From NCBI GenBank assembly GCA_950295325.1, contig OX485809.1, positions 35,841,081 to 35,905,080 of the forward strand: a DNA stretch of 64,000 nt, in the 5' to 3' direction. Positions within the stretch are counted from its first letter, which is position 1; each line of letters opens with the position of its first letter. The position numbers were made by a program, and so were the translations under genes. Source of the DNA: Polytrichum commune. Lineage: Eukaryota > Streptophyta > Polytrichopsida > Polytrichales > Polytrichaceae. Below the pieces are notes generated by a model. That model was not told the origin of the DNA. It saw only the letters and a list, made by a program, of their open reading frames with translations, and ran no database searches. This document shows positions 18,205-60,088 of the stretch, piece by piece.

Positions 18205-21200
18205 GGGCTTGTGTGATACTTTTAGGCTCCCTCGAAAGGGAGTGGCCCAAAAGTACCACAACGGCCGAAAATTGAAATAATGAAGGCATTGAAACATCGG
18301 TCACACCAATGGAAGGGGAGCTGGGGCCCGGCTGAGATGTAGACATGCCATGTCCGAGACTTTGGGATGCTTGGTGAGGCAACTAAGGCACAAAACTACA
18401 TTTACAAAATAAGGAGAGAAATGTTAGATATAAACATGGAGAGTCCAAGTACGGAGCCAAAAAATATCAAAGTTCTCATACCAATTTATTGAGTTCAGCA
18501 AAGCCGTACAACCTCCTAAATTCTGTATCTCTTGGGCCTAGAGGTCTATTGCCAATACGATTTGAGAGGACAAAATCCGGGACACTTCCGGAGTGATGGG
18601 CAAGCCTTCTAATGTAGGGTCCTAATTCTAACTCTAGGAAGTTGTCGTTTCTATCGCCCTCCCAAGGGTTCGGGAAAATGCAGTTGCCCGGGGGGTTGAG
18701 AACGCTCTTCACCGGGCTGTCGTCAATGAGGAGCGTGTTCTCCGGAGTGGGCCAATAACCTTGGGGGACCCCCTCCAACATTGGGACGCCCACCCAGAGG
18801 TTCTTCCTCAGCACCTTAAGGAATTGAGGTCCGCGGCCTCCTCCGACCTTGGGTACAATGTTGCCGCTACGGTCATAAAGGTCATCGCAGTGTTCTTGAC
18901 CGAGAAGCAAGCACGGCATTGCGAGTTCTCGGAAAAGGAAACTGACGACGGCCTTCGTGTTGTCCATCAGCATGGAGCTCCAGATGATGACATGGGCCAA
19001 GCCGAGGACCTCACGAAGGAAGCACCTCAAGCCGGGCCGGACGCGCACAACCTTCTTGTTAATTAGTGTATCGAAGCGCCCGCCGTAATCCATGTCTTGT
19101 GGAGTACGGTAGGGACCCTTGGACGCACTATTGGAGATATGTGTGGATTGACAAAGCACGCCATTGAGGTCAAATATTATGAAGTTTTTCCTCATAATAT
19201 GGCTTGGTCTTTCGGCGGGGTGGCGACATATCTCCGACGGACCCTGTGATGGCACATACTACCTAGGTGAATGGCACTACCCAGGAAAACCAAATGACAA
19301 GCATGCAAAAACGCAACAAAGAAATGCGAGGCAACAAGTATCCGAAGAACTATGCAATTCAAAAAATTGTATTAATGTGTTTGGTGATATACATTTCGCG
19401 AATAATTTACATTGTCACTAAAGGTCTCTCCTAAGATTAATTGAGCCTACACTAGCAAAATTGGATCCGCCGCCGCGGGCGAAGTCGAGATTCGAACTCG
19501 AAAATATGCACACGCCACGAAAGCTGGCTGACTGGGAACTTACGGACGCGCGTCCGTAAAGAGGGAGGCATGCTCAAAGGTTGATTACCTCTTCAGCGGT
19601 GAGTTCCTCGCCGGCAGTGCCTCCCTCACCAGGCCCAGTTGTGGGGCCAGGTTCCGGACGCGCGTCCGTAAATTCGCCATGCGTGTCTTCCACCACCAAC
19701 AAATCGGCTCCACCTGCTTGCGACGCTTGCGTGCCGACGAAAGGTTGATCCTCATGCGAGGAGTCTTGGCCCCCCCGCATATGTACATCTTCATCGGCGA
19801 GGGGGGCGTCGCCCATGTTGACATCTTCATCGTCTCCTATGGCGGGAGGGGAGGGCTCTGGAGCGGCAGCAACCTGGGGAGGGGGCGGGACAACCAACGC
19901 GGGGGCCGTATAGGTGTGCTCCGGTATGTACACCGTGTGGCTGCTAGAAGGAGTGCGCACCAGAACGGGGGGCACGGACATGGCGGGCTCGGGCGCTGCA
20001 TACACCACCTGGGGTCTTGCCTGCAAGCTTGCCATCATGCTCATGAATTGTTGGCTTTGAGCCAAGAATTGTTGATTTTGAGCCATGAGGTCGGCGTGCC
20101 TCCGAGCAGACTCCAACCTAGCTTGCTCCATCTCAGCTTGGATGGCGGCCATCTTCCTGGCGTGCTCTTCGTTGGCCTCCCGGAGCCGCATGTCAAGCTC
20201 TTCCTTCATCCTCTTCTCCATCTTCTCGTCCAGCTCGGAGACGGACATGGGCTCTCTCTTCACCTTGCCTGGCTCAGAAGGCAAGGCGGAGATGGAAGCG
20301 TACAGCCTCACCTCATCCTCGTCTTCATCTGAGAGTTCCAAGACGGCGCCTTCGGGGTATTCGTTGTAAGGCGTCTTGTTCCTCTGCCGCCGGCTTGCAC
20401 GGTAGGAGTCGATATCGGGCCTCGATATCAACTCTAGCATATCTCTACCTTCCATGGGCGGGAGCGCCGCCTGCTCACTGGGCTCTCCCCCACCAGAGGA
20501 CGCCGTGCATCCGGTTTCTGCAGCAAGGTCCGCATCCCTCTCCGCCATAAGCCTTGCAGCACGAGATGGCCCCGCAGTGGAAGGAAGCCCAACTCGAGAA
20601 GTGGGAGTCCCAAAGGGTGATAGACTAGGCGTATTATGAGGCACCCGAATTGGAGTGACGTTGGGCTGCGCCTCCTCTGCATCCATGTCGTCTTCACCCA
20701 GGAGATACGCCACGCGATACACTGGATGACGAGCAAGACCGCGCAAGTCTTCCTGCCTGGAGGGCTGTCCCCTTGGAGACATTGGATCATCGTCTCCATC
20801 GCTGCCCCACCCGCCTGCATGAGAAGGCTCTTCTCTAGAGGCAAGAGGAACAACAGGATGTGGGGTAATGATATCCAAGAAGTCATTGAGATCCATTTTC
20901 TCTGCAAGCTTCCTGTGATCTTTGCACTCATCCATGTCGCCAACCCCCACAAACGAGTTAACCTGCAACCCAAGCATCTGCACCAAATTAAAAAAGTTAG
21001 TGGATTGTTGGTATCAAGATTGAATTGACGAGGAAGATGGACATACAAACATGATGCAGTGTGCATTTTACGGACGTGCGTCCGTAAAATGCACACTGGG
21101 TTAGGTTTGATAACTTTACGGCCGCGCGGCCGTAAATATGCACTGCAGCGCGGCCGCAAAGTTGAAATGAACTAGGTGGTTAAACTTTACGGTCGCGCGG

Positions 21201-24037
21201 CCATAAAGTTGCATCAGGTGGAGGCATGAAAGTTTTTTTAAGTACTTACCAATGCCGCATAAACAAATTTGGTCCCCCCGAAGACGTTGTACACTGTCTC
21301 ACTCATCACAGTCACAGCCTTCAATACTCCTATGTAAAAGTCCATTCGGAGCTCGGTTGCCGAGCAGATTGTGAACATCGCCTCGTCCATTAGCTCCTTG
21401 GGGTGTGGAGGCGGCAACTGGTAAATTTTCTTGAACACGCTCTTCGCCTTTACAGGCAAACGCCCACTTGGCGAAGACTTCCGTGTCAAGAAATAGAGAC
21501 ATATAGCGCCGACCTGCTTTACCCCCCTTGCTTCTTCGATGACGGCGATGCCTTCCGTCTTCGCGGGGACGTATGTGCTGTGGAAGATATTGTATTCGAG
21601 ATCCATCGTCGAGTTGTATAGGTCGACGACCGCTGCGGATCTCTCTTGGTCCACAATCCACAGCCACACGTTTGGCTCCAGAAGTGCAGGGGACCGAAAG
21701 CTCTTGAAAGATTTCAGGAAGCTGTCGTAGAAAGGGGTCCCCGGAGGAGGTTGTTTCCAAGAATTTGGAAATGCACGGAAATCAAAGATAGCAAAAGGAC
21801 AACCCCGGGGGTCATCTCTCACAGTGGCCCGCGAAGCATGGGTGTCCCACTTGCTGAACTTGAATTGTGATGTCACAGCGCAAAACCTCGCGACACCCTC
21901 GAATTTGGCATTCTTTTTTCTATCGAGGAAGTGTTTATATAAAGTTGTCTCCCTTTCGTCGATAGAACCTTTCTTCTCGTTCTTCCTTGAGCGCTGGGCC
22001 AAGAACGGAGATGCTGCTCTTATCAATGCCTTCATTGAGACGCCATTGATGTGGTATGCTATTTTCAATCCCCTCCAGTTGTCCCACACAATGTCACCAT
22101 CTGCATCTGTAAGGTTGTAGGCGGGTACCAATTTGCCTATCTCCCTCATAGCCAATGTCTTCTTCTTCCTGTATTCGCACCATTCCTTAATATGGTACGT
22201 TGAAGGCTTCATAAACCTTGGTCGTTTGAGGAAGATTTTTGGATACGGCGCTGTCCTTCTCGGAGTCTCCTTAAGAAGGTGTTCTGCCGCCTTGTAAAGC
22301 TCGGCATCGAGCAACCCTTGGAGGGGACGGAAGAACTCTCTGAGGATTGGAGGCACCTTAATCTTCAGGTCCTCTTTGTACTTCTTCTCCGTCTCAAGGT
22401 TGATGAGTTCTCCGTTGCTGTGTGCATGGAAGACGCGCATCCAGATAGCCCAGGTCCTACCCGACGAAGTGATGAGCTTCAGTTCGCCCTTTAGATCTTG
22501 CACTGTCTTCATGCCGCTTTGCTTCATGTCAATGCTTGAGAACTTCGTCACAATCGCACTGCTGAATGCCTGCAAGTAGAGAAACAAATGAGTTGTTGAA
22601 ATGAGATCAAAAAATGGAATGAGAACCGTCTAGTTTACGGACGCGCGTCCGTAAACTTGGAGCACACAAAGAATAAAGGGAAAGTTTACAGAAAGAGTGA
22701 AGGAGAATTTACGGACGCGCGTCTGTAAATTCATTTGGGAATATTACCTGCCATTTGGGATTCTTGACGACTGCGTTGTCCCTCTCTTTTGGTGGACAGC
22801 CGTGCTCCTCCCACAAGGTCCTACCAGCCACGATGTTGGCTGCCCATGACGCCTCAAACGCTTTGATTTTGTTTGTCTGGTTGAGGAAGGCAGATATGGC
22901 GATGAGCTGATTGGAGTCCTCTGAATGCACGAGAAGTGCCTTCCAATATCGGATTGTGGGTTTCAGAGGGCTCTTCCAATTATCGTCTGCGAGGAGAGCT
23001 TTTGCCACTTCCACGCTATGCTGGCCGTCCACGATGTAGAATTCCCCTTGCTTAATAATTGGCCAATGTTCTGGTGTGACCTCCACGATTGGATCCTTTG
23101 GGGTCACACATATGGTCTGCCGGTCAGCTTTCGGGTTGTTCATGATGTTGTTCATCTGCCACCAGACCCCGCTCTCTTCTTGCACCCGAGTATTCATACT
23201 CTCGGTGCCCTGGTGGCATTTATAAACATCCACGTCAAATGTGAAATACCTGCCCATTGGCCAGCAGGCTTTCGTTTTTTCGTCGAACTCTTGTTGAATT
23301 TTTGTTGATAGATCAGAGTTCGGCCGTTCTCCTTTCTTCAGAAGTGGTGCGACAGTAAGGGTGGAGCAGACATCTGGACCTTCGGTAAGTCCAGATGACT
23401 CCATCTGTGAATGGGAGCGTTTACTGGATGGTCTGCTCCCTCTCGATGCTCCACTTTGGGACGGTTTTGGTCCTTCCGGGACTGTCTGTGGAACACGCGG
23501 TTGTCGTTCAGAAACGACTTTCTTCTTCCTTTTCCCCTTTCTGGACTCCAGGACTGCCCCATTCATTCTCGTGACATTGTTGAGGAGTCTTCCAAGCCGC
23601 TTACCCGTCCAAGGTGCATTGCATGCATAGTCTTGGAATTCAGTTGCAAGATTGAAGCAACCCGCATCCGGGCTGCCATTTTCGCATTCAGCCTTGTGGA
23701 ATGGATGTCTGTGCTCATGAAGAAGAATTGTGACTCTGTCATCTTATTTTTCAAGATCTATGACGACATAGTCACCTTGGGCCACTGCACACTCTACTGA
23801 CCAATTTTTAACTCTAACCCATTTATCTACGTCTATATCTTTGGTATTCATTTGATACCCAAATCTAAGTACGAATGTGTCATTCTCAAGTTTCTCTACG
23901 TAAACTGTCCAGTTGTCTACTGTGTCTTCGACTAGCTTGTAGTGATCGTTGTGGCTTATATCTTTGATGGCGGGTGGAAGTGGAGGCGGAAGAAACTCAA
24001 ATGCCTGGTCAATTGCAGGTCTTTTTGTAGATGCCAT
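18205..24037 (-). CDS. E1 multi-domain gene: ParB-like, coiled-coil, FCP1-like phosphatase
   Basis: I join five exons on the minus strand: 24037-22748, 22569-21250, 20977-19589, 19243-18482 and about 18382-18205. The first four contain 430, 440, 463 and 254 whole codons, every junction is phase 0, and each intron has GT and AG ends. E2 has the same first four exons with the same phases. The start codon follows a splice acceptor (TTTGCAG then ATG), implying a leader intron, as in E2. The product would be about 1.6 thousand residues: an N-terminal module, a DGQHS ParB-like domain, an unknown conserved domain, an acidic coiled-coil/Pro-rich region, then a HAD domain. A TAA at complement(23744..23746), codon 98, interrupts the frame without a shift. 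Fusion of the HAD exon is inferred: no ATG starts that frame and exon 3 has a good donor, but no transcript was available. Confidence 0.65.
18482..19243 (-). CDS. E1 exon 4: FCP1/NIF-like HAD phosphatase domain
   Basis: HAD-family phosphatase fold related to the FCP1/SCP (NIF) type. HAD motif I reads FDLNGVLC, so the first Asp is present but the second Asp of the canonical DxD is Asn. Motif II is in VIIWSSM, and the late acidic motif is LIDDSPVK. The E2 copy has the same features (LDLNGVLV, VIVWSSM, MVDDSASK) and the same ending (NKLV or NKLI). If active it would remove phosphate from Ser/Thr, classically on the RNA polymerase II tail. The Asn change could reduce activity and leave a binding role. 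The exon opens in frame after a splice acceptor with no ATG. It ends at a candidate donor (GTATGAG), after which exon 5 (L-P-H-Q-A-S-Q) may follow. Confidence 0.78.
19540..19672. repeat. P1 palindromes in intron 3 and exon 3 of the E1 gene
   Basis: Two copies: 19540-19560 in the intron before the HAD exon, and 19653-19672 within the coding part of exon 3. Both have a CG core between the arms TTACGGACG/CGTCCGTAA, the second lacking the outer bases on one side. E2 has palindromes of its own family at the same two places. Confidence 0.9.
19589..20977 (-). CDS. E1 exon 3: acidic, coiled-coil and Pro-rich region
   Basis: It starts MLGLQVNSF right after a splice acceptor, and the E2 exon starts MLGLNIYSY. 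Next come acidic and low-complexity stretches, a coiled coil of about 60 residues rich in Glu, Lys, Arg and Ala (near 20270-20060), then a Pro/Val-rich tail. It looks like a disordered linker and dimerisation region between the DNA-binding-like and phosphatase-like parts. One P1 palindrome lies inside the coding sequence at 19653-19672 and encodes FTDARP. The exon ends GAAGAG before GTAATC, and the TGA at 19574 would lie in the intron. Confidence 0.65.
21061..21210. repeat. P1 palindrome and variants in intron 2 of the E1 gene
   Basis: A 34-bp perfect palindrome lies at 21061-21094, with outer arms GTGCATTTTACGGACG and core TG. Two variants with GGCCG or GGTCG inner arms follow at 21114-21136 and 21184-21210, and a partial one near 21145. 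All are in the intron between exons 2 and 3, whose E2 counterpart carries one P2 palindrome. Confidence 0.88.
21250..22569 (-). CDS. E1 exon 2: conserved domain of unknown function
   Basis: 440 codons with no domain I can name, but clear paralogy with E2 exon 2. Shared blocks are TKFSSID near the start, REFFRPLQGL (REFFRTLQGL in E2), KEWCEYRKKKT (KEWTENRKKKT), VWLWIV (same in E2) and YNVFGGTK near the end (FNVFGGSK). The E1 sequence HFLDRKKNAKFEG aligns with the place where E2 has an in-frame TAG. It is bounded by phase-0 introns that each hold palindromes. Confidence 0.7.
22633..22731. repeat. two P1 palindromes in intron 1 of the E1 gene
   Basis: Copies at 22633-22656 (perfect, core CG) and 22707-22731 (one mismatch). 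They fill much of the 178-bp intron between the ParB-like exon and exon 2. The matching E2 intron carries five P2 palindromes. Confidence 0.9.
22748..24037 (-). CDS. E1 exon 1: N-terminal module plus ParB/DGQHR-like domain
   Basis: 430 codons. Residues 1-97 form a small module (MASTKRP... GDYVVIDLE) shared with E2. A TAA at codon 98 follows, then the same frame continues through a basic, Ser/Pro-rich linker. The domain at about residues 255-430 has IVDGQHSVEVAKAL (E2: LIDGQHSVEASKKI), resembling the DG-x-H-R signature of the ParB/sulfiredoxin-like and DGQHR families, with Ser in place of Arg. Other shared blocks are MGRYF-FDV and PPKERDNAVVKNPKW. ParB-type proteins bind palindromic sites, which fits the palindromes in this element, but that link is inference. 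The domain name rests on one motif. Confidence 0.6.
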
Positions 24038-24080
24038 CTGCAAATGCAAAAAACAATGCTTAGCATCATGATCAATGTCA

Positions 24081-25745: not shown

Positions 25746-25801
25746 TCGCCACGTGGCTGAACCCTATAGGTTCATATTGGAGAGGTATGTGGCACACCTC
25801 T

Positions 25802-33300: not shown

Positions 33301-33402
33301 CATATAGATTTTGCCAAAGACAACTTGGCACGTATCGCAGCTGCGGAAAACGATCTTGAAAATGGAAATGAAGTTGAAGATGAAGATGAAGAGAGGGAAT
33401 GA
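30301..33402 (+). CDS. E1 DUF7869-like protein, candidate transposase
   Basis: Two exons: 30301-31705 and 31874-33402, split by a GT-AG intron after codon 468 plus one base, giving 977 residues and ending TGA. The start ATG sits just after a splice acceptor (TTGTAG). The N-terminus is acidic. The middle has conserved Cys and His (TKDCC..KCCQLFPRGK, FARCSTCEKYK). The C-terminal half has LDNCAKDNK, VGHTHDDIDASFGRW and related Asp/His motifs, which recall DUF7869 proteins and an RNase-H-like nuclease core. E2 carries an equally long paralogue with the same intron. No other protein shared by E1 and E2 looks like a nuclease, so this is the best transposase candidate. The family name is from memory of motifs. 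Confidence 0.7.
31752..31777. repeat. P1-type palindrome in the intron of the E1 DUF7869-like gene
   Basis: A perfect 26-bp palindrome with arms GAGTTACGGATG and CATCCGTAACTC around GC/CG. It is the only notable feature of this 168-bp intron. The E2 intron at the same position has none that I can see. Confidence 0.88.
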
Positions 33403-38831: not shown

Positions 38832-38869
<38 letters not shown>

Positions 38870-43142: not shown

Positions 43143-44577
43143 GTATGGAGTTCACATATTTGATCAAATTTTAGGGTTGTGGTTTTGTCTTGTACTTGAT
43201 GATGTTGAGGAACATTACATATCATATTAGACAAAATCTACACAATTTATGACTATCAAGTTCGGTTTGGTGAATTTAAGCTCCTGTGTGTCATTTGCAG
43301 AGTGCTTGTTAATTCTTAAGAGTAGCCTGTTACCTATATACTAACCATAGCATATTGTCATACTTAGTATGAGCAGCTGCAAAATAAGAATTTTTGGGTA
43401 GGAATTGTGCTCAGAAGTGTGCTTGGATGTTAAACTGTAGTCAGAGTAAGAGTTTGTGTCATAGTTGGCTGGTTTAAGTTCTTCAAAGTAAGGTTTAAAG
43501 GTTTAAAGGTGATATGAACACCCACTGTCTCAAAATCTAGCGCTACAGACACAATTAGGTGTGTGAATTATTGTGAGGAAAATTATGGCTAGGTGGATGG
43601 ATCCTTGATGAACGCCAAAAATCCGAGGTACGTGCTTTTACAGAGAGATTTGTGAGTTTTAAGTGTAAGAAGTATGCAACAGGATTAAACGCAGGTTCAG
43701 AGAATTTCATCGAAACTAATCGCTTTGGTCATGGGATATGAATGATGGCCAAGGCTCCGAAATGCCTAGAGTTTGTGCTTTGGAAACTCAAATTTGTTGT
43801 GCTTCATTCATAACTCTGTCAAGTCGAAAAACCCTAATTCCTTATAAAGCCTTAAGGAGCACTCATGGTCAAGGAAATTGGTGATGATTTCTCATACAGG
43901 TAGCTGATGAAGTGTTCAGGGGAAGCAGTTCTCGAGTGTTGAACTTCAAACAATTTGTGGTTGGGTTCTTCATGAACGCAAAGATTTGAGGTAAGAGACG
44001 CCGTGCACACCGATGAGCAGTGATTTACAGAGATTCTTTTGGGTAGAGACAAGAATCTCGAAGCAAGAATGAAGAGTCATACAAATTTAGTTAATTTATT
44101 TTTGTTAAGTCATGATGGGACATGCCCAAGGCTCTGTTCAATTAAAGTCCTAGAGTTTGTGCTTTGGAAACTCGAATTCTGGTTTTCAGTAGATAAAAAC
44201 CCTAATCCTTGACAAGCCTAAAGGGACACTCATGCTCATGCTCAAGCAAATCGGTGATGATTTTCTCTTCTGAATGGGATTGCTGTTTGGGGCTCGAAAA
44301 GTTAAACATATTGAATTTTTTATGTATCTTTGTAATTTAGTGTTGTCATTGTTGGAAACAATTTGTTGGGATTGAGATGTTGCTGAACTCACAATCATGA
44401 CCTATTTTCACAGTGAACTGGAACCTTAGTGATGGAAGTTTCACACAGGCTCTACTTCTAGAGACTTTGTGCTTTTGGAAAGTCAAATTCTGGGCTTCAG
44501 TCAAAAACCTCAAGTCCAAAACCCCTAATTCTTGAAATGCCTGAAGGAACACCACTCATGCTCAAGCAAATTGGTAA
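43143..44577. repeat. three diverged direct repeats, the target region of E2
   Basis: A block containing AAAACCCTAAT...CTCATG..CAAG.AAATTGGTGATGATTT occurs near 43830-43890, 44205-44265 and 44518-44577. The third copy is cut at GGTAA by E2 and resumes at 60597 (GTAATAATTTTCTCTT). The segment 43524-43580 also recurs at 60998-61050. The whole region has intron-like composition. Confidence 0.7.
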
Positions 44578-44605
44578 AACACTATATTCGTTAAATTGAG
44601 ACTTT
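44578..44605 (+). repeat. E2 left terminal inverted repeat
   Basis: Starts AACACTATATTCGTTA and is identical over 28 bp to the reverse complement of 60569-60596. Just inside lies a small hairpin (GAGAC...GTCTC). A near-identical 61-bp copy of 44578-44638 occurs inside E2 at 50130-50190. Confidence 0.9.
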
Positions 44606-48100: not shown

Positions 48101-48178
48101 TAGCTCATCCCCAGACAGAGATTGGGTGCTGCCCATGTCTTCAGAGAAGGAATCCCCTCTTCCACCAACTCCCTCCAT
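45110..48178 (-). CDS. E2 DUF7869-like protein, candidate transposase
   Basis: Two exons, 48178-46735 and 46596-45110, with the same intron position and phase as E1 (after V-T-G, before M-I-A-H-G-H). I start at the ATG at 48178, just after an acceptor, as in E1. The shared landmarks are TKDCCVHRCCQLFPRDK, FARCSKCEKLK, LDNCAKDNK, VGHTHDDIDASFGRW and GFWPQTRV. A TAA at complement(45704..45706) falls within strongly conserved sequence (GSWI, stop, YWTHVRGAL against LIAYWDRIRTAL in E1) with no frame change. It would either truncate the protein by about 200 residues or be read through. The ORF ends at TGA. Confidence 0.72.
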
Positions 48179-48381
48179 TACGCCTACACACATGCACATG
48201 AAATCTCAACAAACATGGACACAACGTAAGGGTCCAAAAGAATCAAATATTGGAAAATGCAAAACATCACGATGAATGGGGACACTGAGGATCAAGACAT
48301 TTGCAACACAAATGCAATGTGAGCTCCCAATACTATGCGCCAGTCCACAAAATGTTCCACAAAATATTTTGGGTGGGAGTT

Positions 48382-49410
48382 TGGGTCAGCCGACCTAAAC
48401 CCTATGGCACCAGGGATTGAGGGCCATCCCCACCTTGCCCGTGGGATAGGGTCGGGTTCCGGTCGACCGACTCAAACCTTGTACAATGATGGGTTGAGGG
48501 CCATTTAGAATTCCATCACACTGTGGGGAAAACTTTGGGTCGACCGACCCAATCCTTGTCATGGTCAACTACAACCGCCGAAACTGGGGAAGGGGTTTGG
48601 GTCGACCGACCCAAACTTTCACAGGGTAAACCCACCCACACTCAGAAAGGGTTTGGGTCGGTCGACCCAAACTTTCACAGGGTAAGTCCACCCACACCGG
48701 GAAAGGGTTTGGGTCGGTCGACCCAAACTTTCACAGTGTAAATCCACCCACACTGGGATGAGGTTTGGGTCGCTCGACCCAAACATTACATATGATGGGA
48801 TAAGGTTCCTACTATGTCCGTCCAAACCTTCTGAGTACCTTGGGTAAGGGCCATTAACAATTCGTTCACGATGTGCGAAAAAGTTTGGGTCGACCGACCC
48901 AAACCTTCTAAAAGGTTTTACGATAAACGCCCACAGTGGGGTAGGGGTTTGGGTCGACCGACCCAAACCTCACAAGGGTCAGAGTAGACCCCCCCCCAAC
49001 ACTAGTGAAGGGGTTTGGGTCGACCGACCCAAACCTCACAAGGGTCAGAGTAGCCCCCCCCCCAACACTAGTGAAGGGGTTTGGGTCGACCGACCCAAAC
49101 CTCACAAGGGTCAGAGTAGACCCCCCCCAACACTAGTGAAGGGGTTTGGGTCGACCGACCCAAACATCACAAGGGTCAGAGTAGACCCCCCCCCAACACT
49201 AGTGAAGGGGTTTGGGTCGACCGACCCAAACCTCACAAGGGTCAGAGTAGACTCCCCCCAACACTAGTGAAGGGGTTTGGGTCGACCGACCCAAACCTCA
49301 CAAGGGTCAGAGTAGGCCCCCCCCCAACACTAGTGAAGGGGTTTGGGTCGACCGACCCAAACCTCACAAGGGTCAGACTGGAACCCGCCAACACTAGTGT
49401 CGACCGACGT
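48382..49410. repeat. P2 palindrome cluster upstream of the E2 DUF7869-like gene
   Basis: Well-kept copies start at 48533, 48596, 48651, 48707, 48762, 48882, 48946, 49012, 49079, 49144, 49210, 49275 and 49341, with degenerate ones near 48382, 48458 and 49399. From 48946 to 49400 seven copies lie in tandem units of about 66 bp separated by C-rich spacers. Arms are GTTTGGGTCG/CGACCCAAAC and cores AC, GT or CT. Open frames here (repeated FGSVDPNP) are translations of the repeat, not genes. Confidence 0.93.
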
Positions 49411-49456
49411 ATAATACAACGTATAATGCGGCGTATAATGCGGCATATAATGCAGC
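49408..49456. repeat. 12-bp tandem repeat, four units
   Basis: Four units of CGTATAATGCGG-type sequence follow directly on the P2 array. On the minus strand they lie in the leader of the DUF7869-like gene. Confidence 0.7.
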
Positions 49457-49640
49457 GGATATTGAGAGGTGTGTGGAATTTCAGCTCATTGCAAAGTTCA
49501 CTGCGGACTTGCATGCTGTGGATAGGTCTTCATGAACAGCAGCGTGAACGAACCTCGAAGTACAGCTCCGACTAAGAGTTCTCTCTACGAATTCAGGAGT
49601 GGGAGAAGAGCAAAAAGAAACCAACTTTTGGGGGGTGCGC

Positions 49641-49650
49641 CCCTTTATAC
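49641..49650 (-). promoter_or_regulatory. candidate TATA box of the E2 DUF7869-like gene
   Basis: On the minus strand the sequence reads GTATAAAGGG, followed by GC-rich DNA and a probable leader that runs through the P2 cluster to the splice acceptor before the ATG at 48178. Position and orientation fit a core promoter. This is judged by motif only. Confidence 0.35.
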
Positions 49651-49739
49651 TATCCACCTCCACTTGCCCGACTTCCTCATTGGATGCCTTTCCCGCCTTA
49701 TTATTTCAAACCTCCTGACAGAATTCCCCGTTTTCTGTT

Positions 49740-51978
49740 TATTGTAGAAAATGCGCATCTTTCAATGCCCCTCTCATACCCCAGCCGTCATATGATTTAG
49801 TCTATGATATTTAATGTTTTTTTGGTTTTGTGTGTATATGACATACGACATTGGGAGGAAGGGTGGCGGCCACATTAATTTTTTCAAGTGTCACAACGGT
49901 ATATTTTAACCAATATGTATACCCAACCACAACTCCATTCAATGCTTTCAAGTGCAAACCTATTTCGGTGGGGTTGGGGCCATTTGGAGGCTGCAATTAT
50001 GAGAGAGTTTCCAAGGCTTGAGGCCATTGTCATGATGAATAAAATTATTTATTTGTCTCCCCTAAACCCTAAACCCTAGAACATTGCTCTATTATCTCGC
50101 ATGGAAGTGTGGCAATGATAAACGTATGTAGCACTATATTCGTTAAATTCAGACTTTCTCTAGTCTCAAATTAATATATGGATCAAACAAAAACTTCTAC
50201 AATGTCACCCTAATGCATCATATACATATTAAATGATGATATTGATCTACTTTAATTCAAACATTACGGTATGGCATTAACCAATATGTAGACAAAAGAA
50301 GTCTAAACATTGTGTAACGCCTTATGGTAAGAGTCACTAAATACAATAGTTAAAGTGGTTATGAAGATCCTCGCAAGGGGAATTATTAATTTTGAAATCA
50401 AATTATGTCATGACAAAGTTCATTTATTGTTCCAAATCTGAATTTGCAACAATGCAAGTGACAAGAGCTTTTATATATAATATGTTGTCATCCCTAAACC
50501 CTAAACCCTACAATATTGTCCTCTTCTCTCGCATGCAAGTGTGGCAATGACGAATGTATGTGGACGTCGATAAGGGGATACTAACTACCAATGTCGCTTT
50601 TTAGTTCAATATTTCCATGCTAATTGAATCCATCCTCAAGTTCACTTCAAGCTTACTAATGTGTGTGAACAAAACATCCAAAGTTGAACCCTAAACCCTT
50701 ATAACATCCACAACATGAAATTATACGTATTGACTAAACCATACACCAATTAGTATATCATGTTTAGACGTTCCAAATAACATATTCACATGATCAAGAT
50801 TGTGGTCACTATAACCTTCCTATTAGACTCTTCTTAATATATAAACAACATTTCTTATATCTTTCTCCATTATCTAATATACGTGGAGGGAACAATGAAC
50901 AACAACACGATTGCTTGCATGGCTTCATTTGATGTTGTGCTTAACCGATTTACGTTTATATCACATTCCATATATTAAATACATCACGAACCATAGTTTA
51001 TTGGCGACTATGTGATTCATCAAAGGGAGCAAAACATCCAAAGTTAGACCCCTAAGTCCTAATAACATCCACAACATGAAATGCTATTTGAATAAACACA
51101 AGACCAATTAGTATATCACGTTTAAACGTCCCAAATAACAACTTAACATACTCAACATCATCTTTACTATAACCTTCCTATAAGACTCTTCTCACCAGTA
51201 AGTCAATGTTGTACGTTAATATTGGATAGATTAATATGTTATAACCATGACTCCTAAACCCTAAAGTTACCCTAAACCCCAAATCTTGTAGTTGTTCAGT
51301 GCTACCTCCATATACAAACAACATCAAGTTTGTCTTGCGCCATTATCTAATATACTTGGAGCGAACCTTCAATAACAACATGATTGCTTGAAGGGCTTCA
51401 TATGATGTTGTGGTTCTCCGATTTGCTTTTATATCACATTCCAAGTACATATATCACGATCCATGATTTATTGGCGACTATGTGATTCATCAAAGTGAAT
51501 ATCTAGGGGATACCCTATAAAACTTGAGCATGTTAGCATTTTGAAATAAAGATCATGCAATTCCAAACCCTCACAATATGCACTTGGGGAAGGTATTCAT
51601 TTAGGCTCCACATTCAAATATCCTCAATTTCCGAATTTCATGTTGGGGGGTGGGGATTGTCTTTTTTATTCATTGCATATTGTGTGAGTTGTTGGCATCA
51701 ATGGTAAAGTCTATTGTATTTGGCACGTAATTGTATTTTTTTTATAACGTGCTCAAACAAACGAGAAACCAATGACTTCAACTTGTTTGGAAAATTTAGT
51801 TAATGGTGTCATGTAAGTAGGAATTAAGTATTAGTGTTAGCATAAAGTTGCGTTGTAAAGATGTATTAGTTGTATAAATGGTTTAGTTTTTTAGAATACC
51901 TCATTTGATGTATACCTTAGGCTACTCCAAAGTCTATTCAAAATTGTACTACCCGCTAAGGGTTTACTCCTTAGAGGG
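49740..51978. other. intergenic region of E2 with repeats and telomere-like tracts
   Basis: No gene. 50130-50190 is a direct copy of the E2 left terminus (59 of 61 bases). 50671-51020 and 51028-51495 are a diverged tandem duplication; both contain CTATGTGATTCATCAAAG at their ends. CCCTAAACCCTAAACCC-type tracts occur near 50062, 50490, 50687 and 51250. 51645-51795 is the inverted counterpart of window positions 1-165. The region looks like a patchwork of older insertions. Confidence 0.55.
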
Positions 51979-52940
51979 ATGGGAGTTAGGGTTCCCCGTA
52001 ACCCTATTCCCGTTGCTGCCCTAATCACGTTGGCACCCTATTCGCGCGGTTGGGGGCCAATTCCCGAGGGTAACAAAACCCCAGCCGCCAAGCATTCTCC
52101 TCCTTTCTCTCTCTCTCTCCCGCCAACCTTTCGCTCCGCGCCTCTTGTGGAAGCGCCGCCTCTCCTGAAGCGCCGTGGCAATTCAGGGTGGCGCTTTTCT
52201 TTACATTCCTTCTCCACCCTTTTTTCTTCTCCTTCCCTCCCTTCTCTTGCTGTAGCGGGAGATTGCACTAGTGTTGCAATATATAGCATTGTTGAAGTGT
52301 TTTCCAGATTGTTGAAGGGTTTTCCAACATTCTGTGTGAGCTTTAGGCAGTGCTTGCGAGAGTTCGAAGTGCGGATGAGTGCATGTGAGTGCTTGTGAGT
52401 GCATGTGAGTGCTTGTGAGTGCATGTGAGGGCTTGTGAGTGCATATGAGTGCTTATGAGTGCATGTGAGTGCTTGTGAGTGGTTGTCAGATTAGGAAGTT
52501 CTATAAGAGATACAAAAGTGATACAAAAGTGCTTTCAGAGATTTAGTTATTGTTTTGAGAGATTCAGTTGTTGTTTTAACAGACTCAGTTGTTGTTTGAG
52601 AGTTACAATTGTTGTTTGAGTGATTCTGAAGAGACTCAGGAGTTGTGTGAGAGATTGTGGGTTTATTGAGAGATTCAAGAAAGGTTTGAAATCTTTGGTA
52701 GTTGTTTGTGAGTTTTAGCGTGTCTGCGAATAGGAATTCACTGATTCTGTCTTAGTCGAAGAAGAGCACTTGTTCAAAAGCAACCATCTGCAACGACTAC
52801 AACAGAAACCCTCAACAAAGGTATTGTTTTTCAAGGGGTTCCAATATGTGTTTCTTAATTGACAGTGTTGTAGCATACACAATGCATAAGCATTGTATAT
52901 GCTACATGCCAAGTTTAAAAAACTATATTAAAATAGAACA
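51979..52940 (+). promoter_or_regulatory. probable promoter and 5' leader of the E2 multi-domain gene
   Basis: The stretch 52080-52260 is CT-rich (TTTCTCTCTCTCTCTCCCGC), followed by a GAGTGCATGTGAGTGCTTGT microsatellite at 52373-52480 and GATTCAGTTGTTG-type repeats to 52660. E1 has the same order of CT-rich DNA, low-complexity DNA and palindromes ahead of its gene. A 139-codon frame at 51979-52398 has no homologue and probably reads leader DNA. Confidence 0.4.
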
Positions 52941-53305
52941 GTTTGGGGAGACGACCCAAACACAGCCTATAGTTTGGGTCGATCGACCCAAACAGCACGA
53001 TGTGCTTTGGGTCCCTAAACCCTAAACACAGCCTATAGTTTGGGTCGATCGACCCAAAGCACATCCTGCTGTTTGGGTCGGTCGACCCAAACGCAACCTC
53101 TACAGTATAAACTTTTCAAGAAATCCTTGATGACAATATAAAACGCAAATCCACCCAAGATAACGAAATACCATATAAACATATAAATGAAGTTCTAAAA
53201 TAACAAGACACAATCCAAAAATAAATGCGTTGATGCATTACATTTCCCTTCCATCACGTGACATCTAATCTATTGTGAAGAAGTTTGGGTCGAACGACCG
53301 AAACT
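52941..53305. repeat. P2 palindromes in the leader of the E2 multi-domain gene
   Basis: Copies at 52972, 53038 and 53071, with weaker ones at 52941 and 53282. Cores are AT, GT and AA. The last ends 26 bp before the ATG at 53331. This matches the P1 cluster just before the E1 start codon. Confidence 0.88.
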
Positions 53306-53330
53306 AACATCCTTGCTTCTTTCTTTGCAG

Positions 53331-54656
53331 ATGGCCCCAAAGAAAAGACCAGGAGAAAGGTGGTTCATGCTTGCGCCAGACGTGTTATGGCAGGAGCACG
53401 AAACACCTCAGGATGACTCATATGTCCCTAAGGACGGGCTTGTCCTCGCCTGGTCAATTCAAGTAGTAAAAACCTCCATTTACAAACTGATATTCGTTGT
53501 CAAAGTAGGGACCGTGGAAAAACATACCTGGGCGACTCTTACAGGATGGGAGGTGGCGTCGGTCCAGTCTTTTGGAGACTACGCAGACGTCATCCTTGAG
53601 AACAACGCTGTGCAGAATGCTCATATGTTTCTGTACTAGTTCGTCGAACCCTTTGACGCTACATATGCAAGGGAGTCATGTGTCGAACCTGATGTAATCA
53701 AACCCAAGACAATTTTCATCGATGCCAGTACATCGAACACAAAGGTCTCGAGCCGGTTTACGAAACTAAAGCATGCAATCAGCGTGCTCAACAAAGCCCT
53801 GCAGAGCAAAACGAAGTCTCAGCAAGCCGTCAGGCGGAAGGTACCCACTGAGGAAGGTGCAGGGTCGTCAAGGCCTCAATCAGTGAGGATGCCGCAACCA
53901 GTCCCGGCTAGCTCAAGACGAACCACTCCATCGGAGACACCGGCGGATAGCCAGACTCCTACGCCTTCTGGCAGCCGCCAAACAACTCCCTCCAAGAGGG
54001 CGAGAGAGTCATCTGTGATGACTGACGAGCCAGTCTCTCCAGAATTGCGCATGCCGAAGCCAGGGCAGGAAGTGGATGCAGGGGAGATCCAAAAAATCGT
54101 GAACAATTTCACGACCAAGTGCTCCCATTGCTTTTTCATGGGCAGGGATTTCAAATTCGACGTGAACATCAGTCAGTGTCATCTCGCGCCACCAGAAAAA
54201 TGTGTCCGAGCAAAAGAAGACGCCTACGTCGATTGGATAATCGCGCAGATCGTTAGCGAACAATTCAAAGACGACAGGCAAACCATTGTAGTGATGCCCC
54301 AGGGACTGAAGAAAATGCCTACCCCTCAAATGTGGGCGACAATTCAGAAAGGCGATTTTTGGCTCATAGACGGCCAACACAGCGTTGAGGCTTCCAAGAA
54401 AATCCAACTGATGACTGAATGGGACGATCCCAACCATCAGAATGAGAAATTGAAGGTGTGGAAGGCACTGGTGGTGTGGTCTGACGATGAGACCCGACTG
54501 AGCGACATCTCCCGTTACTTTAACATGGGGAATAAGAAAAGGGCCTACCAAGCTTCCTGGATAAGGAATATCATGGCCTCGCGGGAGGTGTGGGAGTTCT
54601 ATGGTAGGCCTCCCAAGGAGAGGGAGAATGCAAAGGACAAGAATCCCAAGTGGGAG
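53331..54656 (+). CDS. E2 exon 1: N-terminal module plus ParB/DGQHR-like domain
   Basis: MAPKKRPGERW opens a module of about 100 residues ending near GDYADVILEN. A TAG at codon 103 follows, 10 residues away from the TAA of E1. A Ser/Thr/Pro-rich linker leads to the conserved domain with FMGRDFKFDV, LIDGQHSVEASKKI near residue 348, and PPKERENAKDKNPKWE at the end. The signature DGQHS has Ser where ParB/DGQHR families usually have Arg. A role in binding the P2 palindromes is a hypothesis. Confidence 0.6.
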
Positions 54657-57600
54657 GTGAGTATTGTTTGGGTCGATCGACCCAAACTCCTTTTGCAGCT
54701 TTATTTGTGTATTTTGGGTCGCTCGACCCAAACTCTTGTTGCAGTCATGTTTTTTAGTTTGGGTCGCTCGACCCAAACTCTTGTTGCAGTCATGTTTTTT
54801 TTAGTTTGGGTCGATCGACCCAAACTCTTGTTGCAGTCATGTTTTTTTAGTTTGGGTCGATCGACCCAAACTCTTGGTGCAGACACTGGTCATGATATGT
54901 TTTGGAAATCACATGTTCATATCTAACATGCATTCAAATGATTGTTTTGATCACATGCAGGACTTCAAATACCAAATGATAAATAAATTCTCCTCCATTG
55001 ATAATGCTAGTCACAAACAGAAGAAATACAACGAGCTTAGAGGGGAGATTTATTTAATAACAGCATCCGACTCCGTTTGGATGAAGTGGAAGAGTGTATT
55101 TGAGAAGCATGAGACGGGTGAGCTCATCGACCCGGACACAGGAATTTTCTTCAACCAAACCACGCGCTTCAAACAAATGAAGCCTCTCGTGAGAGAGTTC
55201 TTTAGAACTCTTCAAGGCCTTTCCGAGACGGAGATGGAGAAGGCGGCGGCGCACATCCTGCATTTCACGCCCACGGCGAAAAGGTGCTGGGTGCACCCGA
55301 AGATTGTCTTCTTAAAGCCCAAATCCTTCGTCCCTTCATGCTACACCATGAAGGAATGGACTGAGAATAGGAAAAAAAAGACAACTATAGTGCAGGAGCT
55401 GCATAAATTGGTGCCGGAGAGGAATATTATCGTGGACGGCGAGGTTCATGAGGCTAACTGGAGAGCATTCAAAGCTGAATATAAGTTCACCAGTGCCTCC
55501 ATGGCGGCTCTAATAAGGGAAGCGGGGGATGACTTCTTGCGGGCCAAGATGGTGAAGGGTGGGAAGAACCGGGCGCTTCCGGATCACACAGCGCGTGCGT
55601 TCTCGAACTTCATCAAATAGAAGAAGATTGTCCAGTTTGAAGGGGACGCTTACTTCAACCTTGTCACCTTCGAGCCTTTGAAAATTCAGGGCTGGCCAGG
55701 TCAAGACGCCAGAATGGCGATAAGGACGAAAGCAGGGGGGCGTTTCCCATTCGGAATGATAGATTTCAGGAACATTCCTGGAAGCTCATTTGAGGGTACG
55801 ATGAGCACACTGTTTTACGACCCCTTCCTATCTAAGTTCGTCGATTATGCGAGTCCTAAGTTCAGGGAGGTTGATGTCTGGCTATGGATAGTCGAGGATA
55901 GGAGGGCGGAGCAAGTGTACGACCTTGTCCGGAAATTGCAGCCGGAGTATGCAGTCTCCAAGTCTCACTACATCGCCGCACCGGCGGAGGGGGCCTACAC
56001 GTCGTTGAAGGACAAGAAGACCAAGGTCGTCAACGTCCTGTGTTTGTACTTCGTGTACAAAGCGGAGTTGTTGAAGGTGCCGAACCACCCTATATCCCGG
56101 ATGGACAAGCTCTTCCAAGTTCCAGATGGGTTAGGTTCCAGCAAATGCCTATACGACGAGGCCAAATACGCAAACTATCCTGCAGATGAGCTGCGGATGG
56201 AATTCTACATGCGGATGCTGAGGACGCTGACTAGGAGAGGGGACTGTATCTTCAACGTGTTCGGGGGCTCGAAACCCCTCTATGCTGCCATGGTAAGTTA
56301 CATTCTTTAGCTCTTGCGCAGTTTGGGTCGGTCGACCCAAACTAAATATTGTTTTTGGTCTTGTTTTTTGTCTTGCAAATTCTAATTTCTATATAACTTG
56401 GATTGTGTAGATGTTGGGGTTGAACATCTACTCGTACATAGAGGATAGCGATCTGCAATTTTACAGGACGCAGAAATCGCTGGCAAAGAAGATGGATATC
56501 CTCGATTGGATCCCGGGAAGCTACGTGGACGAGGTTGTTGAGGGGGGTGAGAACCCTCTTGATAGGGCGAGGCGGATCAACCCGGAAGAAATTGCGATAA
56601 GGGCAACAACCCAATTACCCGAACCTCTAGTCGGGTTGCATCCGGGCAATCCGTCCCGTACAGGAGGTGGAGAGGTGGAAGAGGAGGAGGAAGAAGAAGA
56701 ACACGGAGAGGAGGAAAAGGAGGGGGATGTGGAGGAAGGGGCAACGGGATTCACGCAAGAATCTGAAGCCCCTCAGAGGAAGAAGGCTATGCGTGTGGCA
56801 ACCCCGCAGAGTAAGATGATGCCCGTCCTTACGGTGGACGATGCGAGGGACATGTACTCCAGGGACGCGACTGCCACGTTCCGGGAGAGGAGGAAGTTAA
56901 AGGGAAAGAAGCTCTATGGCGATTACGCATTGGAGGAGACCATTGCCATTAGCAGCGAGGACGACGACGACATTGAGCTCGCCAAACGGCTCAGATCGGA
57001 TCCCCCCTCCCCGACAGCGTTCGCAGGCATGGTTAGGGTGAAACCTGAAGTCCTCACTGTGGAGGAAGCCAACGAGAAGATGCGTAGAGACGAGGAGCAG
57101 CGCGTCCGCCTGCAGAGGGCTGCCGCGGAAGAACCCTCCGTGCGGAACGAGGTTGCAGAGCTGAGGGCTCTCCTCTTGGAACAAGAAAGACTAAGGGCGA
57201 TGGCCCAACCTCCATCCAGCGCCGACTTGATATCGCAAGTCATACAAGGGATGTGGGCGCAAGGATTGGTGGTGGCTCCATCCAGCTCGTTTCCGCACTT
57301 GCCCCCCGGTTTCCCAGCGCAGAGCATCCCTCAGCACCCAGTGTCGCAAGGGTCATTCAGCTTCCAGCACATGATGCGGCCGCCCCATGTTCCGTACGCG
57401 CCGGTCCAACAAGTGGACGATCCCAACATCTGGCGCGTATCTGGAGCCTCCTCCCCGTTGGGCCCTCCACCACTACGACCCCCCATAGTGATGGCGCCCC
57501 CTCACCAGCCGGACGATCCCAGGATGTTTGGGTCGACCGACCCAAACCCACCCTCGACTGTAGTGCCCCAAGGCGCCTCCCCCGATGTAGGACAGTTTGG

Positions 57601-60088
57601 GTCGCCCGACCCAAACCCCGGAGCAGCTTAGTCCTCCCTTGACGAACTTGTGTCTCAAAGAGACACAACCATGTTAGATGTTGAAGGCCTCCAAGGGCCT
57701 GGTGATACCTCTAATCCTAACCAAATCGATGAACCCATGCATGATGCATATGCGGAGATTGGTTTAGGACAAGGGCCTGATGCTCAACCTTTGCAGGACA
57801 AGGTCCCTGACGTAGGCGGAGAAGGCGGTGGCGAGAGAGGTGGGGCACCAGGGACGGTGGAGGCATCCACATCGTCGAGACATGACCAGGGCGAGGTAAC
57901 ACACTGAGCCCTCCCAGTTTGGGTCGACCGACCCAAACCTCCTTGGTCATTGTCTTGTTGGCGTGGTCTTGTCCCCCCTAGCTATGAGGAACTACACCCC
58001 CCCGACGCACCCAACAACGTGCTCCCCCCGCGATCCCCTTCGTCTCACCTCACTCGACTACGCTCAACCTTGGCGGCGCGCAACCAATTTTGTAGATGTA
58101 CAATTAGGATAGTGTGAATGCCCTCGTTCACCGCCCCCCCCCTCAAATTGTACATAGAGATTTGTAACAATAAAATTATTATTTTTGGCGCCCATATGTT
58201 AGCATCCGTGTCCCAATGTATGTTGTTCCCCTTGTATGTTTTTGTTGCCACCAATGGTCCAATTCTTCTTGTGTTTGCACAAAATTTCCGTTCTGCTTGA
58301 ATTAAACATAGCATAACATAGTCCTCGCCGCCTTCTCTCGCTCGTCGCCGCAGGGATCGGAGCATAGCGTCGTGGCTCCCCACCGGTCCTCCCCGAGGAG
58401 CGTGGAGGACAGCGCGGTGGTCCCCCCGATTTTGCCCTCCCCGTCTCCGCCGCCCAAGACACGGTTCCTGGTGCTAGACCTCAACGGGGTCCTCGTCCAG
58501 TGCGTGCACTGTCCCAAGGTCCCCACGGTGCCTTTCTGCAAGCCCGAGGACGGGAACTACGATGGTCCCCCCGCGTACATCAAAAGCAAGCTAGTGTACC
58601 TCCGCCCGTGGCTTCGGCGCTTCCTGCAGGTCGCCCTATCCAAATGGTGGGTGATCGTGTGGAGCTCCATGAAGTCCGAGAACACCCAGGCCGTCGTGGA
58701 GTTCATCTTCAAGGGACTCCAACCCCCGTGCTTGGTCCTAGGACAGGATTCTTGTAAAACATTGTACACCCCCGAGGGCAGGGTTGTGAAAAAGCCCAAC
58801 AACCCCGCCGTAAACCAATTTCTTAAGGTCTTGAAGCCAGTCGTATGGGACCAGCGTCCGACCATGGTCGGCTGTCCCTACGACGTTCGCCCCACCCGTG
58901 ACAACACGTTGATGGTGGACGACAGCGCTTCCAAGAACATTTTGAACCCGACCTCGAACTTCATAGTTTGCCCCACGTGGACGGTCGAGAAGGTCCGAGA
59001 CCGCTTTTTGTTAGACCTACTTAAGTACATTCAAACGCTCGTGGGGAGCGGACTACCCGTGCCCCGGTTCCTTAGTTGTAATCCGATAGGCGAAAGATAC
59101 ATGGATCCGAAGGACTATATGTACAGAGAGTTGTACGCTCACGCGAAATATAATAAACTCATTTGAGATACTACATGGTGTGCCATTGTGTGTGATATAG
59201 TATGCCTCAATTGTATATCGATTTTCTCATGCTCCCCCCCTGCCCCCCTCCCCTTGGGTTTTGTTTGTTTTAATTTTCCCATCAGCGTTTGGAGCCCTCG
59301 ATTGACATCGTCAGCGAATCAAACTTGGGGAGCTTCTTCTACGAGACCGTCTACGATGCCGCGTCCACCATCGACTACTCCAAGGAGCCTATTGACGCCG
59401 GCGTCGTCGATAGCCCCCCACCCAAGCAAATCTTCCGGCCATCTCCGTCCCCGTCGCCGCTCAAGGGCATAAATCGCAAATGCGTCCGGACGTCCCCGTC
59501 TCGGCCCGGCGGCAGTAGTACACCTCAACGGCGGCTGCGGATGGACGCTCGGCCTACGAAGAGTGGCACCCTTCCTATTCCTTTGCGGGACGCATTGCCC
59601 CTCCTCGCCGACTCCGACGGGAACGCCCCCGGTGACAAGGTGAACCCCCCCCCCCCCAAACATGGTTAACCGCGCATTACAATCATCCGGCACTTAAAAA
59701 ATGAACGTGTGACACGTTTGGGTCTTCCTCCCTAAACTAACACGTGTGTTCTTGCATTCACGCGTTGCAGGTTGCTCCCACCCGTAGACCTATGCGGGCT
59801 AGTGCGTCCGTCGAGTTGGAGCGTTTCTACTCCATGACCAGAAATGCAAGACAGTCCACTTCATCGTATTCGAATTCTTCGTCGTATAATTCGGGCGGCC
59901 GACGGAATCCAAAATGTGTTATTGATGGCGGTCACCCCAAGAATGGCTATAGTCGCGGGGCGGAGATTTTCAGGAATGTTGAAGCAATGCGAGCAAAAGA
60001 AGCCGCAGCAAAAGAAAAAGAGGCAAAAGAAAAAAAAGCAAAAGAAAATGAAGCAAAAGAAAAAGAGGTAGTCTCCGAGGCTAGATAG
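53331..60088 (+). CDS. E2 multi-domain gene: ParB-like, coiled-coil, FCP1-like phosphatase
   Basis: Exons 53331-54656, 54961-56292, 56411-57895 and 58354-59163 contain 442, 444, 495 and 270 whole codons. Introns 1-3 are phase 0 with GT-AG ends, as in E1. Further exon-like frames at 59286-59638 and 59771-60088 may extend it, but no GT donor follows exon 4 (the site is ATTTGAG where E1 has GTATGAG), so exon 4 may end at TGA 59164-59166. The start ATG follows a splice acceptor (TTTGCAG). In-frame TAG codons at 53637-53639, 55618-55620 and 57629-57631 interrupt exons 1, 2 and 3 with no frameshift, and homology to E1 continues on both sides of the first two. Either the gene is decaying or TAG is read through. 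Confidence 0.62.
54666..54871. repeat. five P2 palindromes filling intron 1 of the E2 gene
   Basis: Copies at 54666, 54712, 54756, 54803 and 54849, spaced 44-47 bp in tandem units containing CTTGTTGCAGTCATG. Cores are AT or CT. Together they occupy most of the first 215 bp of the 304-bp intron. Confidence 0.93.
54961..56292 (+). CDS. E2 exon 2: conserved domain of unknown function
   Basis: 444 codons, paralogous to E1 exon 2 through INKFSSID, REFFRTLQGL, KEWTENRKKKT, DVWLWIV, SHYIAAPAEG and FNVFGGSK. The TAG at 55618-55620 lies in NFIK, stop, KKIVQFEG, aligned with HFLDRKKNAKFEG in E1 (Arg at the stop position). No domain recognised. Confidence 0.68.
56321..56342. repeat. P2 palindrome in intron 2 of the E2 gene
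   Basis: One perfect copy with core GT in the 118-bp intron between exons 2 and 3, at the same relative place as the P1 palindromes of E1 intron 2. Confidence 0.92.
56411..57895 (+). CDS. E2 exon 3: acidic, coiled-coil and Pro-rich region
   Basis: It opens MLGLNIYSYIEDSDLQ (E1: MLGLQVNSF), then a run of about 20 Glu-rich residues, a coiled coil (NEKMRRDEEQRVRLQR and following, about 57065-57190) and a long Pro-rich tail. Two P2 palindromes lie in the coding tail (57526 and 57594) and encode FGSTDPNP and FGSPDPNP. After an in-frame TAG at 57629-57631 the same frame stays open for another 88 codons to a good donor (GGCGAG/GTAACA at 57895). Confidence 0.62.
57526..57616. repeat. two P2 palindromes inside coding exon 3 of E2
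   Basis: 57526-57547 (core AC) and 57594-57616 (core CC), both perfect in their arms and both in the same reading frame. E1 has one P1 palindrome in the coding tail of the same exon. Confidence 0.9.
57917..57938. repeat. P2 palindrome in intron 3 of the E2 gene
   Basis: One perfect copy (core AC) 21 bp after the exon 3 donor. E1 intron 3 likewise carries one P1 palindrome 28 bp after its donor. The rest of this 458-bp intron (57939-58353) shows nothing else. Confidence 0.92.
58354..59166 (+). CDS. E2 exon 4: FCP1/NIF-like HAD phosphatase domain
   Basis: It opens in frame after the acceptor GCCGCAG with no ATG (GSEHSVVAPHRSS; E1 opens GPSEICRH), so it must be spliced from an upstream exon. 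Motif I is LVLDLNGVLVQ, with Asn in place of the second catalytic Asp. VIVWSSM and LMVDDSASKN supply the later HAD motifs. The C-terminus reads YNKLI then TGA. The pattern of conservation with E1 (both with DLNG and the DDS motif) argues for a retained function, whether enzymatic or binding. Confidence 0.78.
   Translation, partial: GSEHSVVAPHRSSPRSVEDSAVVPPILPSPSPPPKTRFLVLDLNGVLVQCVHCPKVPTVPFCKPEDGNYDGPPAYIKSKLVYLRPWLRRFLQVALSKWWVIVWSSMKSENTQAVVEFIFKGLQPPCLVLGQDSCKTLYTPEGRVVKKPNNPAVNQFLKVLKPVVWDQRPTMVGCPYDVRPTRDNTLMVDDSASKNILNPTSNFIVCPTWTVEKVRDRFLLDLLKYIQTLVGSGLPVPRFLSCNPIGERYMDPKDYMYRELYAHAKYNKLI
59286..60088 (+). CDS. possible 3' exons of the E2 gene
   Basis: Two open blocks, 59286-59638 and 59771-60088, each follow an acceptor (CCATCAG and GTTGCAG), and the first ends at a donor (GACAAG/GTGAAC), all in phase 0. 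The first is Ser/Pro-rich. The second is basic and ends in a Lys/Glu/Ala repeat (EAAAKEKEAKEKKAKENEA) likely to form a single helix, then TAG. They could be the tail of the multi-domain protein or a separate small gene. E1 has a different candidate tail exon. Confidence 0.4.

Follow-up and report, generated by a model that had tools for sequence, protein, structure and literature searches.

The 64,000-nucleotide stretch of Polytrichum commune DNA analysed here (contig OX485809.1 of assembly GCA_950295325.1, positions 35,841,081 to 35,905,080; hereafter the window) carries two DNA transposons of 16-17 kb, E1 and E2, each filled with its own family of short interrupted palindromes. Both are built on the same plan, with a transposase gene on one strand and, on the opposite strand, a three-exon gene for a putative regulator and a gene for a phosphatase resembling NLI-interacting factor (NIF). 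The E1 transposase matches DUF7869 in Pfam (2.2e-38), and that of E2 is its homologue. The elements end in terminal inverted repeats (TIRs) with the sequence AACACTATATTCG and are flanked by a 4-bp target duplication, which was read by eye from the flanks in all three copies with both ends visible: E2 itself (TIRs at 44578-44605 and 60569-60596, GTAA on both flanks) and two complete E1-type copies on C1 (L007/L008 and L009/L010), whose ends lie 17.3 kb apart between flanks of CACT and ATGG. No left TIR of E1 was found within the window. Target duplications of 4 bp are those of the Sola superfamily, and we call E1 and E2 Sola-like, a provisional label, DUF7869 being the only transposase match. 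Protein identity between E1 and E2 is 60% in transposase exon 1, 41% in the phosphatase, 36% in regulator exon 1 and 27% in exon 3. In place of DLDET, the classic motif of NIF-like phosphatases, both phosphatases have DLNG.

Palindromic sites in the window and the genome

The E1 site is TTTACGGACG-NN-CGTCCGTAAA and the E2 site GTTTGGGTCG-NN-CGACCCAAAC, each 22 bp long with two 10-bp arms and a 2-bp core. The original prediction, made from the letters of the window alone, gave each element about 26 copies of its own palindrome and placed none elsewhere. A search allowing up to three mismatches agrees on both points, with 25 E1 sites and 28 E2 sites in the window (0/100 shuffles for either family) and none of either family beyond the span of its own element. 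A scan for any palindrome added one E1-like copy in a transposase intron and a third family of the same 10+2+10 design, ACTGTCTCGG-NN-CCGAGACAGT, with 11 copies at 6703-8945; these form part of a 222-bp tandem array (6670-9047) with MULE-like gene sets on either side, at 618-4376 and 9716-15437.

The sites lie upstream of both the transposase and the regulator, and within the regulator gene. In E1, eight are found upstream of the transposase (29510-30247) and ten upstream of the regulator (24083-24712), with two more in intron 1, three in intron 2 and two at the end of exon 3; the corresponding figures for E2 are 15 (48379-49362) and four, then five in intron 1, one in intron 2 and three at or after the end of exon 3. 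Across ten regulator copies, a site is present in intron 1 of nine and in intron 2 of all ten (up to five mismatches).

The arms are better preserved than their surroundings. We compared arm positions with flanks within 60 nt, between copies and in alignable stretches. In 13 E1 pairs (all except B-C and D-W1), the fraction of differing positions is 0.044-0.106 in the arms versus 0.086-0.258 in the flanks, and in all six E2 pairs 0.012-0.060 versus 0.062-0.310. Arms of diverged pairs outlast flanks about 2- to 26-fold, a gap that may be inflated, by an estimated twofold at most, by our choice of sites through consensus match in either copy. In the two very recent pairs, the arms are not better kept (0.025 versus 0.017 and 0.016 versus 0.012). 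Two E1 sites, at 21057-21098 and 24613-24658, carry copy-specific complementary extensions that lengthen the arms to 20 and, with one mismatched pair, to 23.

The core had been described as varying freely, which larger tallies contradict. Counted with up to five mismatches, 136 E1 sites from six stretches have a core of CG in 98 cases, TG in 16, CA in 11, TA in three and others in eight. Among 176 E2 sites from nine stretches, a tally that takes in a few poor matches close to element ends, AC/GT (48), AA/TT (42), AG/CT (32) and AT (23) make up 145, or 82%, and the remainder consists of CC/GG (13), GC (8), TC/GA (6), CA/TG (3) and CG (1), with TA absent. This bias, together with the lack of a Pfam recombinase match among the 18 window open reading frames (ORFs) scanned, led us to reject the accompanying idea that the palindromes are recombinase crossover sites.

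The 407.8-Mb genome holds 7,578 E1 and 13,847 E2 sites, against five for each reversed-pattern control. Genome-wide confinement to related elements, which the original prediction put forward as a check, breaks down for E2. The first 100 E1 matches listed form eight clusters, and in seven a listed regulator match lies within or next to the cluster (97 of 1,076 candidates scored). The first 100 E2 matches listed form nine clusters, of which eight were examined; E2 genes are present in three, and the fetched 10 kb of the other five (H, I, J, K and M) yielded neither these nor a ParB-methyltransferase gene. Strict confinement therefore fails, because E2 sites also lie in MULE-like elements in which no regulator gene was found, and one site type is common to two kinds of element. 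Clusters H, K and M match the MULE-like genes of the window over long stretches (31-63% identity), with E2 sites in the interval that separates the pieces of the gene, and further ones upstream in K and M; clusters I and J hold MULE-like fragments only. In these MULE-like elements (L019, L022, L023; fragments L020, L021), the E2-type palindromes are often spaced 32 bp, and another palindrome family, CCCTGTGCGT-NN-ACGCACAGGG, occurs in four of the five gene-less clusters (L020-L023) and at 1,243 sites genome-wide (up to two mismatches; controls 0). The name MULE-like is a by-eye label resting on what we take to be a SWIM-like motif, and a Pfam scan of seven MULE-like ORFs gave no match.

No clear shared flanks pointing to a common origin of the arrays in MULE-like and Sola-like elements appeared in the first 25 of 183 alignment rows; the array alignments span 57-135 bp at 72-84%, which we judged to be about what the 22-mers alone would yield. 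Clusters H and I share 1.4-kb stretches (97-99%) with F, away from the arrays, which we interpret as a further insertion. The E1 and E2 families keep to separate stretches: six E1-type stretches contain 118 E1 and 0 E2 sites, four E2-type stretches contain 108 E2 and 0 E1 sites, and the two were found together in none of the 15 stretches examined. Among viral contigs, the patterns matched 40 stretches, none of which encodes a relative.

The predicted regulator and its site types

The three regulator exons are presumably spliced into one protein. Its predicted model matches ParB, Noc and KorB (ParB/Srx fold), in keeping with the ParB-like exon 1 protein proposed earlier, and also contains a second domain, overlooked at that time, whose predicted fold matches beta-class N6/N4 DNA methyltransferases. 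With such splicing, ParB-like and N4/N6 methyltransferase domains would stand together in one predicted gene opposite the transposase. In sequence-based searches, the Protein Data Bank returned only weak rows for the ParB alignment, mostly ephrin receptors, and only weak rows for exon 2; NCBIfam held nothing notable for the regulator, and PHROGs gave a weak ParB match for P0028 (E 0.0075). The presumed DPPY slot of the methyltransferase-like domain, assigned by eye from strand order and not by a printed structural alignment, reads D-F-R-x-x-P in 36/36 homologues (one with C for R), and motif I is mostly NVFGG(S/T)K. The domain is probably degenerate and may have lost catalysis.

Both window regulators carry nonsense codons at positions where eight other compared copies have no stop, and exon 1 is open throughout in many genome copies. 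In diverged pairs with computable synonymous divergence (dS), the near-identical D-W1 aside, the ratio of nonsynonymous to synonymous divergence (dN/dS) is 0.03-0.38 over exons 1-3, and the exons are under purifying selection. The synonymous divergence of regulator exons 1-2 is several-fold above that of the transposase and phosphatase of the same pair: between copy B and window E1, it reaches 1.41 and 1.38, versus 0.35, 0.30 and 0.39 for transposase and phosphatase, with many transversions, and the other compared E1 pairs are alike. This excess possibly reflects escape from homology-based silencing or an older cassette. By eye, exon 3 of both regulators and the MULE-associated proteins (3564-4376 and 14689-15126) have a hydrophobic-acidic stretch near VKxE, which we take to resemble a SUMO-interacting motif next to a sumoylation-like site.

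Many gene predictions run beyond the end of exon 1 into intron 1, so that the palindrome can be read from the peptide. A protein search returned 93 exon 1 homologues, of which 27 give a full-length palindrome reading (reversed proteins, 0); looser peptide patterns, set after the tails had been viewed and carrying no reversed-protein control, label 43/93. Five site types emerged: TTTACGGACG, TTTACGAACG, GTTTGGGTCG, GTTTCGGGCG and GTTTCGGTCG. The tree covers 54 of the 93 homologues and both window copies, trimmed of their tails wherever the end of the exon could be recognised; among the 54, 15 have no readable tail and five are ambiguous. The TTTACGGACG and TTTACGAACG types fall into different clades, one with 13 rows and the other with 12 (both 100/99). 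The GTTTGGGTCG type lies in a 30-row E2 clade, within which GTTTCGGGCG falls in a nested clade of four rows (100/100), and GTTTCGGTCG appears once inside the latter (P0027) and once outside it, next to a GTTTGGGTCG row (P0035, P0036). Over 34 clearly labelled rows, trimmed to P0028 columns, site type changes five times on the tree (minimum four), versus at least 12 times in 2000 shuffles of the labels (mean 17.7). Within the 19 E2-group rows there are three changes versus a shuffle mean of 4.8, and 20/2000 shuffles are as low. Site type tracks the regulator tree, which is the form in which the earlier claim that protein and site diverged together is upheld.

Possible readers of the palindromes

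The analysis shows the gene layout, predicted folds, site placement, arm conservation and co-inheritance of site type with protein clade, and we consider it likely that a protein encoded by the element itself reads the palindromes. The reader would be the regulator, in which a predicted ParB-fold domain is followed by a probably degenerate N6/N4 DNA methyltransferase domain, and whose gene lies opposite that of the transposase in large Sola-like elements. A dimer of this protein probably contacts the two half-sites, at both promoters and within the introns of its own gene, and may keep the element transcribed; its most likely mode of action is sequence-specific anti-silencing in the manner of Arabidopsis VANC. 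Site and protein would have diversified jointly, with each element family mainly reading its own label. On balance we favour, by a modest degree, the whole explanation, in which the regulator of each element recognises that element by its palindromes, most likely for anti-silencing of a VANC-like kind; anti-silencing as the purpose of the site-reader pair, taken separately, is a tentative assignment with somewhat less than an even chance. A bolder version, in which bacterial ParB-type loading was rebuilt as an anti-silencing code, with parS-like entry, spreading of ParB plus dead methylase, a separate site-reader pair for each family and MULE-like elements acquiring the site for protection, is rather doubtful.

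The resemblance to VANC, already proposed, agrees with the published description in site placement and regulator divergence. As set out in the relevant passages of PMC5735166 and PMC10398659, VANDAL transposons likewise carry short motifs packed densely into noncoding DNA and the introns of the regulator, and these motifs turn over as tandem repeats and form element-specific families. Their regulator is also far more divergent than the transposase, and VANC6 motifs also occur in an unrelated transposon, AT9TSD1 (passages of PMC5735166). In contrast, E1 and E2 are a different kind of transposon, and their site is a 22-bp palindrome and not a nine-base asymmetric motif. Dense, element-specific motifs in noncoding regions are present here, as in VANC-type systems; we nonetheless do not class the system as VANC, because none of the 54 exon 1 homologues, the 36 exon 2 homologues or the E1 exon 3 ORF has a Pfam match to the VANC domains DUF1985/DUF287.

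The regulator can also be set beside two other groups. The bacterial pairs ParB-parS, Noc-NBS and KorB-operator use palindromic sites, and E1 and E2 share with them both such sites and a predicted ParB/Srx fold; unlike bacterial ParB, the regulator has GQHS in place of the motif GERR, no identified helix-turn-helix, an added methyltransferase-like domain and a home in a eukaryotic transposon. Fungal DNA transposons with TET/JBP dioxygenase genes, possibly directed against silencing, are similar in carrying their own DNA-modification gene; the enzyme is different, and the opening of the abstract mentions no site family (PMC12730594).

The protein class is already known. The 21.5-kb Sola1-1_Ec32 of Ectocarpus has a 1104-aa ParB plus N4/N6 methyltransferase gene opposite its transposase, and the passage describing it points to Iyer 2011 and Petroll 2025 for comparable proteins of green and red algae (PMC12477816). 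E1 and E2 share with this giant DNA transposon the ParB-like and N4/N6 methyltransferase domains and their orientation opposite the transposase, and differ in the changed presumed catalytic slot, the third exon, the phosphatase gene and the genome in which they reside; the ParB/Sola passage of PMC12477816 does not mention palindromic sites. The present analysis adds the families of sites and their agreement with the protein tree, the alteration of the presumed catalytic slot, the position of sites in introns and at promoters, and the occurrence of one site type in MULE-like elements as well; the titles and abstract openings among the matches listed, with most subscription papers outside the search, make no mention of palindromic sites for ParB-methyltransferase transposon proteins. 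The palindromes are a candidate for the missing half, with thousands of target sites in one genome, of the ParB-methyltransferase accessory proteins of algal transposons, and would add, with a different protein, a second example of what looks like VANC-type self-recognition. Since no fewer than five site types have a corresponding protein clade, the specificity code can be tested by swaps of protein and site, and the E2 site common to two transposon kinds can be tested as site piracy.

Four alternatives were weighed against self-recognition by an anti-silencing regulator. First, the regulator could be catalytically active and methylate N4-cytosine or N6-adenine in its own element with the palindromes as guides, a marking role already proposed for the algal relatives: the passage in PMC12477816 suggests binding and epigenetic modification of the protein's own transposon, and the predicted fold matches such enzymes. 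The altered DPPY slot of all 36 homologues, assigned by eye as stated, and the motif I sequence argue against it, and we regard this reading as unlikely. Second, and by a hair less likely still, a host protein could read the sites, either to silence the elements or as an ordinary transcription factor that several transposons have recruited. It would account for an E2 site common to Sola-like and MULE-like elements, in arrays with no clear shared flanks in the rows read; against it, site type follows the clade of the regulator that the element itself encodes, and none of the 15 stretches has both kinds of site.

Third, the palindromes could be accessory sites for transposition itself, like the subterminal repeats of En/Spm that are bound by TNPA. 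Many arrayed copies in both halves of the element would suit such a role, but the sites are not subterminal: the E2 sites begin 3.8 kb in from the left end and stop 2.7 kb short of the right end, genes lying in between, and regulator introns hold sites in all ten copies examined. Rejected by position, with no concentration near the ends, this is improbable. Fourth, and least probable, the palindromes could be passive tandem repeats, or DNA or RNA that forms hairpins, with no dedicated reader: several arrays are tandem repeats, and E1 has 22 symmetric double changes versus about 1.8 expected (some being one site counted across several copies) as well as the extended arms, as hairpin-templated repair would produce, but E2 lacks such an excess (three versus 1.2, all in poor matches by element ends) and the arms outlast their flanks. 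No RNA family was detected in the window at gathering score.

Coordinates and minor features

Table 1. Features of the E1 and E2 transposons in window coordinates
Feature	Position	Strand	Remarks
E1 NLI-interacting-factor-like phosphatase	18476..19258	-	
E1 palindrome family	19539..30247	.	25 copies, TTTACGGACG-NN-CGTCCGTAAA
E1 regulator exon 3 (ORF span)	19574..21013	-	acidic, coil-like; C-terminal codons overlap palindrome
E1 regulator exon 2 (ORF span)	21238..22629	-	helical part and predicted beta-class N6/N4 DNA methyltransferase fold; presumed DPPY slot changed
E1 regulator exon 1 (ORF span; last bases are intron read-through)	22709..24037	-	predicted PH/PTB-like and ParB/Srx-fold domains; one nonsense codon
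E1 transposase, DUF7869, two exons	30301..33402	+	intron 31706-31873
E1-like extra palindrome copy	31753..31778	.	matched changes in both arms; inside transposase intron 31706-31873
E1 right TIR	34033..34048	-	
E2 left GTAA duplication and TIR AACACTATATTCGTTAAATTGAGACTTT	44574..44605	+	
E2 transposase, two exon ORFs	45110..48205	-	second ORF broken by one stop codon
E2 palindrome family	48379..57938	.	28 copies, GTTTGGGTCG-NN-CGACCCAAAC
E2 regulator exon 1, ParB-like	53331..54665	+	one nonsense codon
E2 regulator exon 2 region, methyltransferase-like	54805..56310	+	one nonsense codon; start is intron read-through
E2 regulator exon 3 (ORF span)	56411..57631	+	
E2 NIF-like phosphatase	58312..59166	+	
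E2 right TIR and GTAA duplication	60569..60600	-	

An additional copy of the terminal repeat, with one mismatch, lies inside E2 at 50132-50157, in an AT-rich stretch with CCCTAAA repeats, and may belong to a non-autonomous copy nested there. Copy B, a complete E1-type element, is inserted in a MULE-like gene, whose pieces flank it on either side (L007 205-642 and L008 7948-8958). Between E1 and E2, the window contains a CACTA-type element at 39335-42272, with Transposase_21 and DUF4218.
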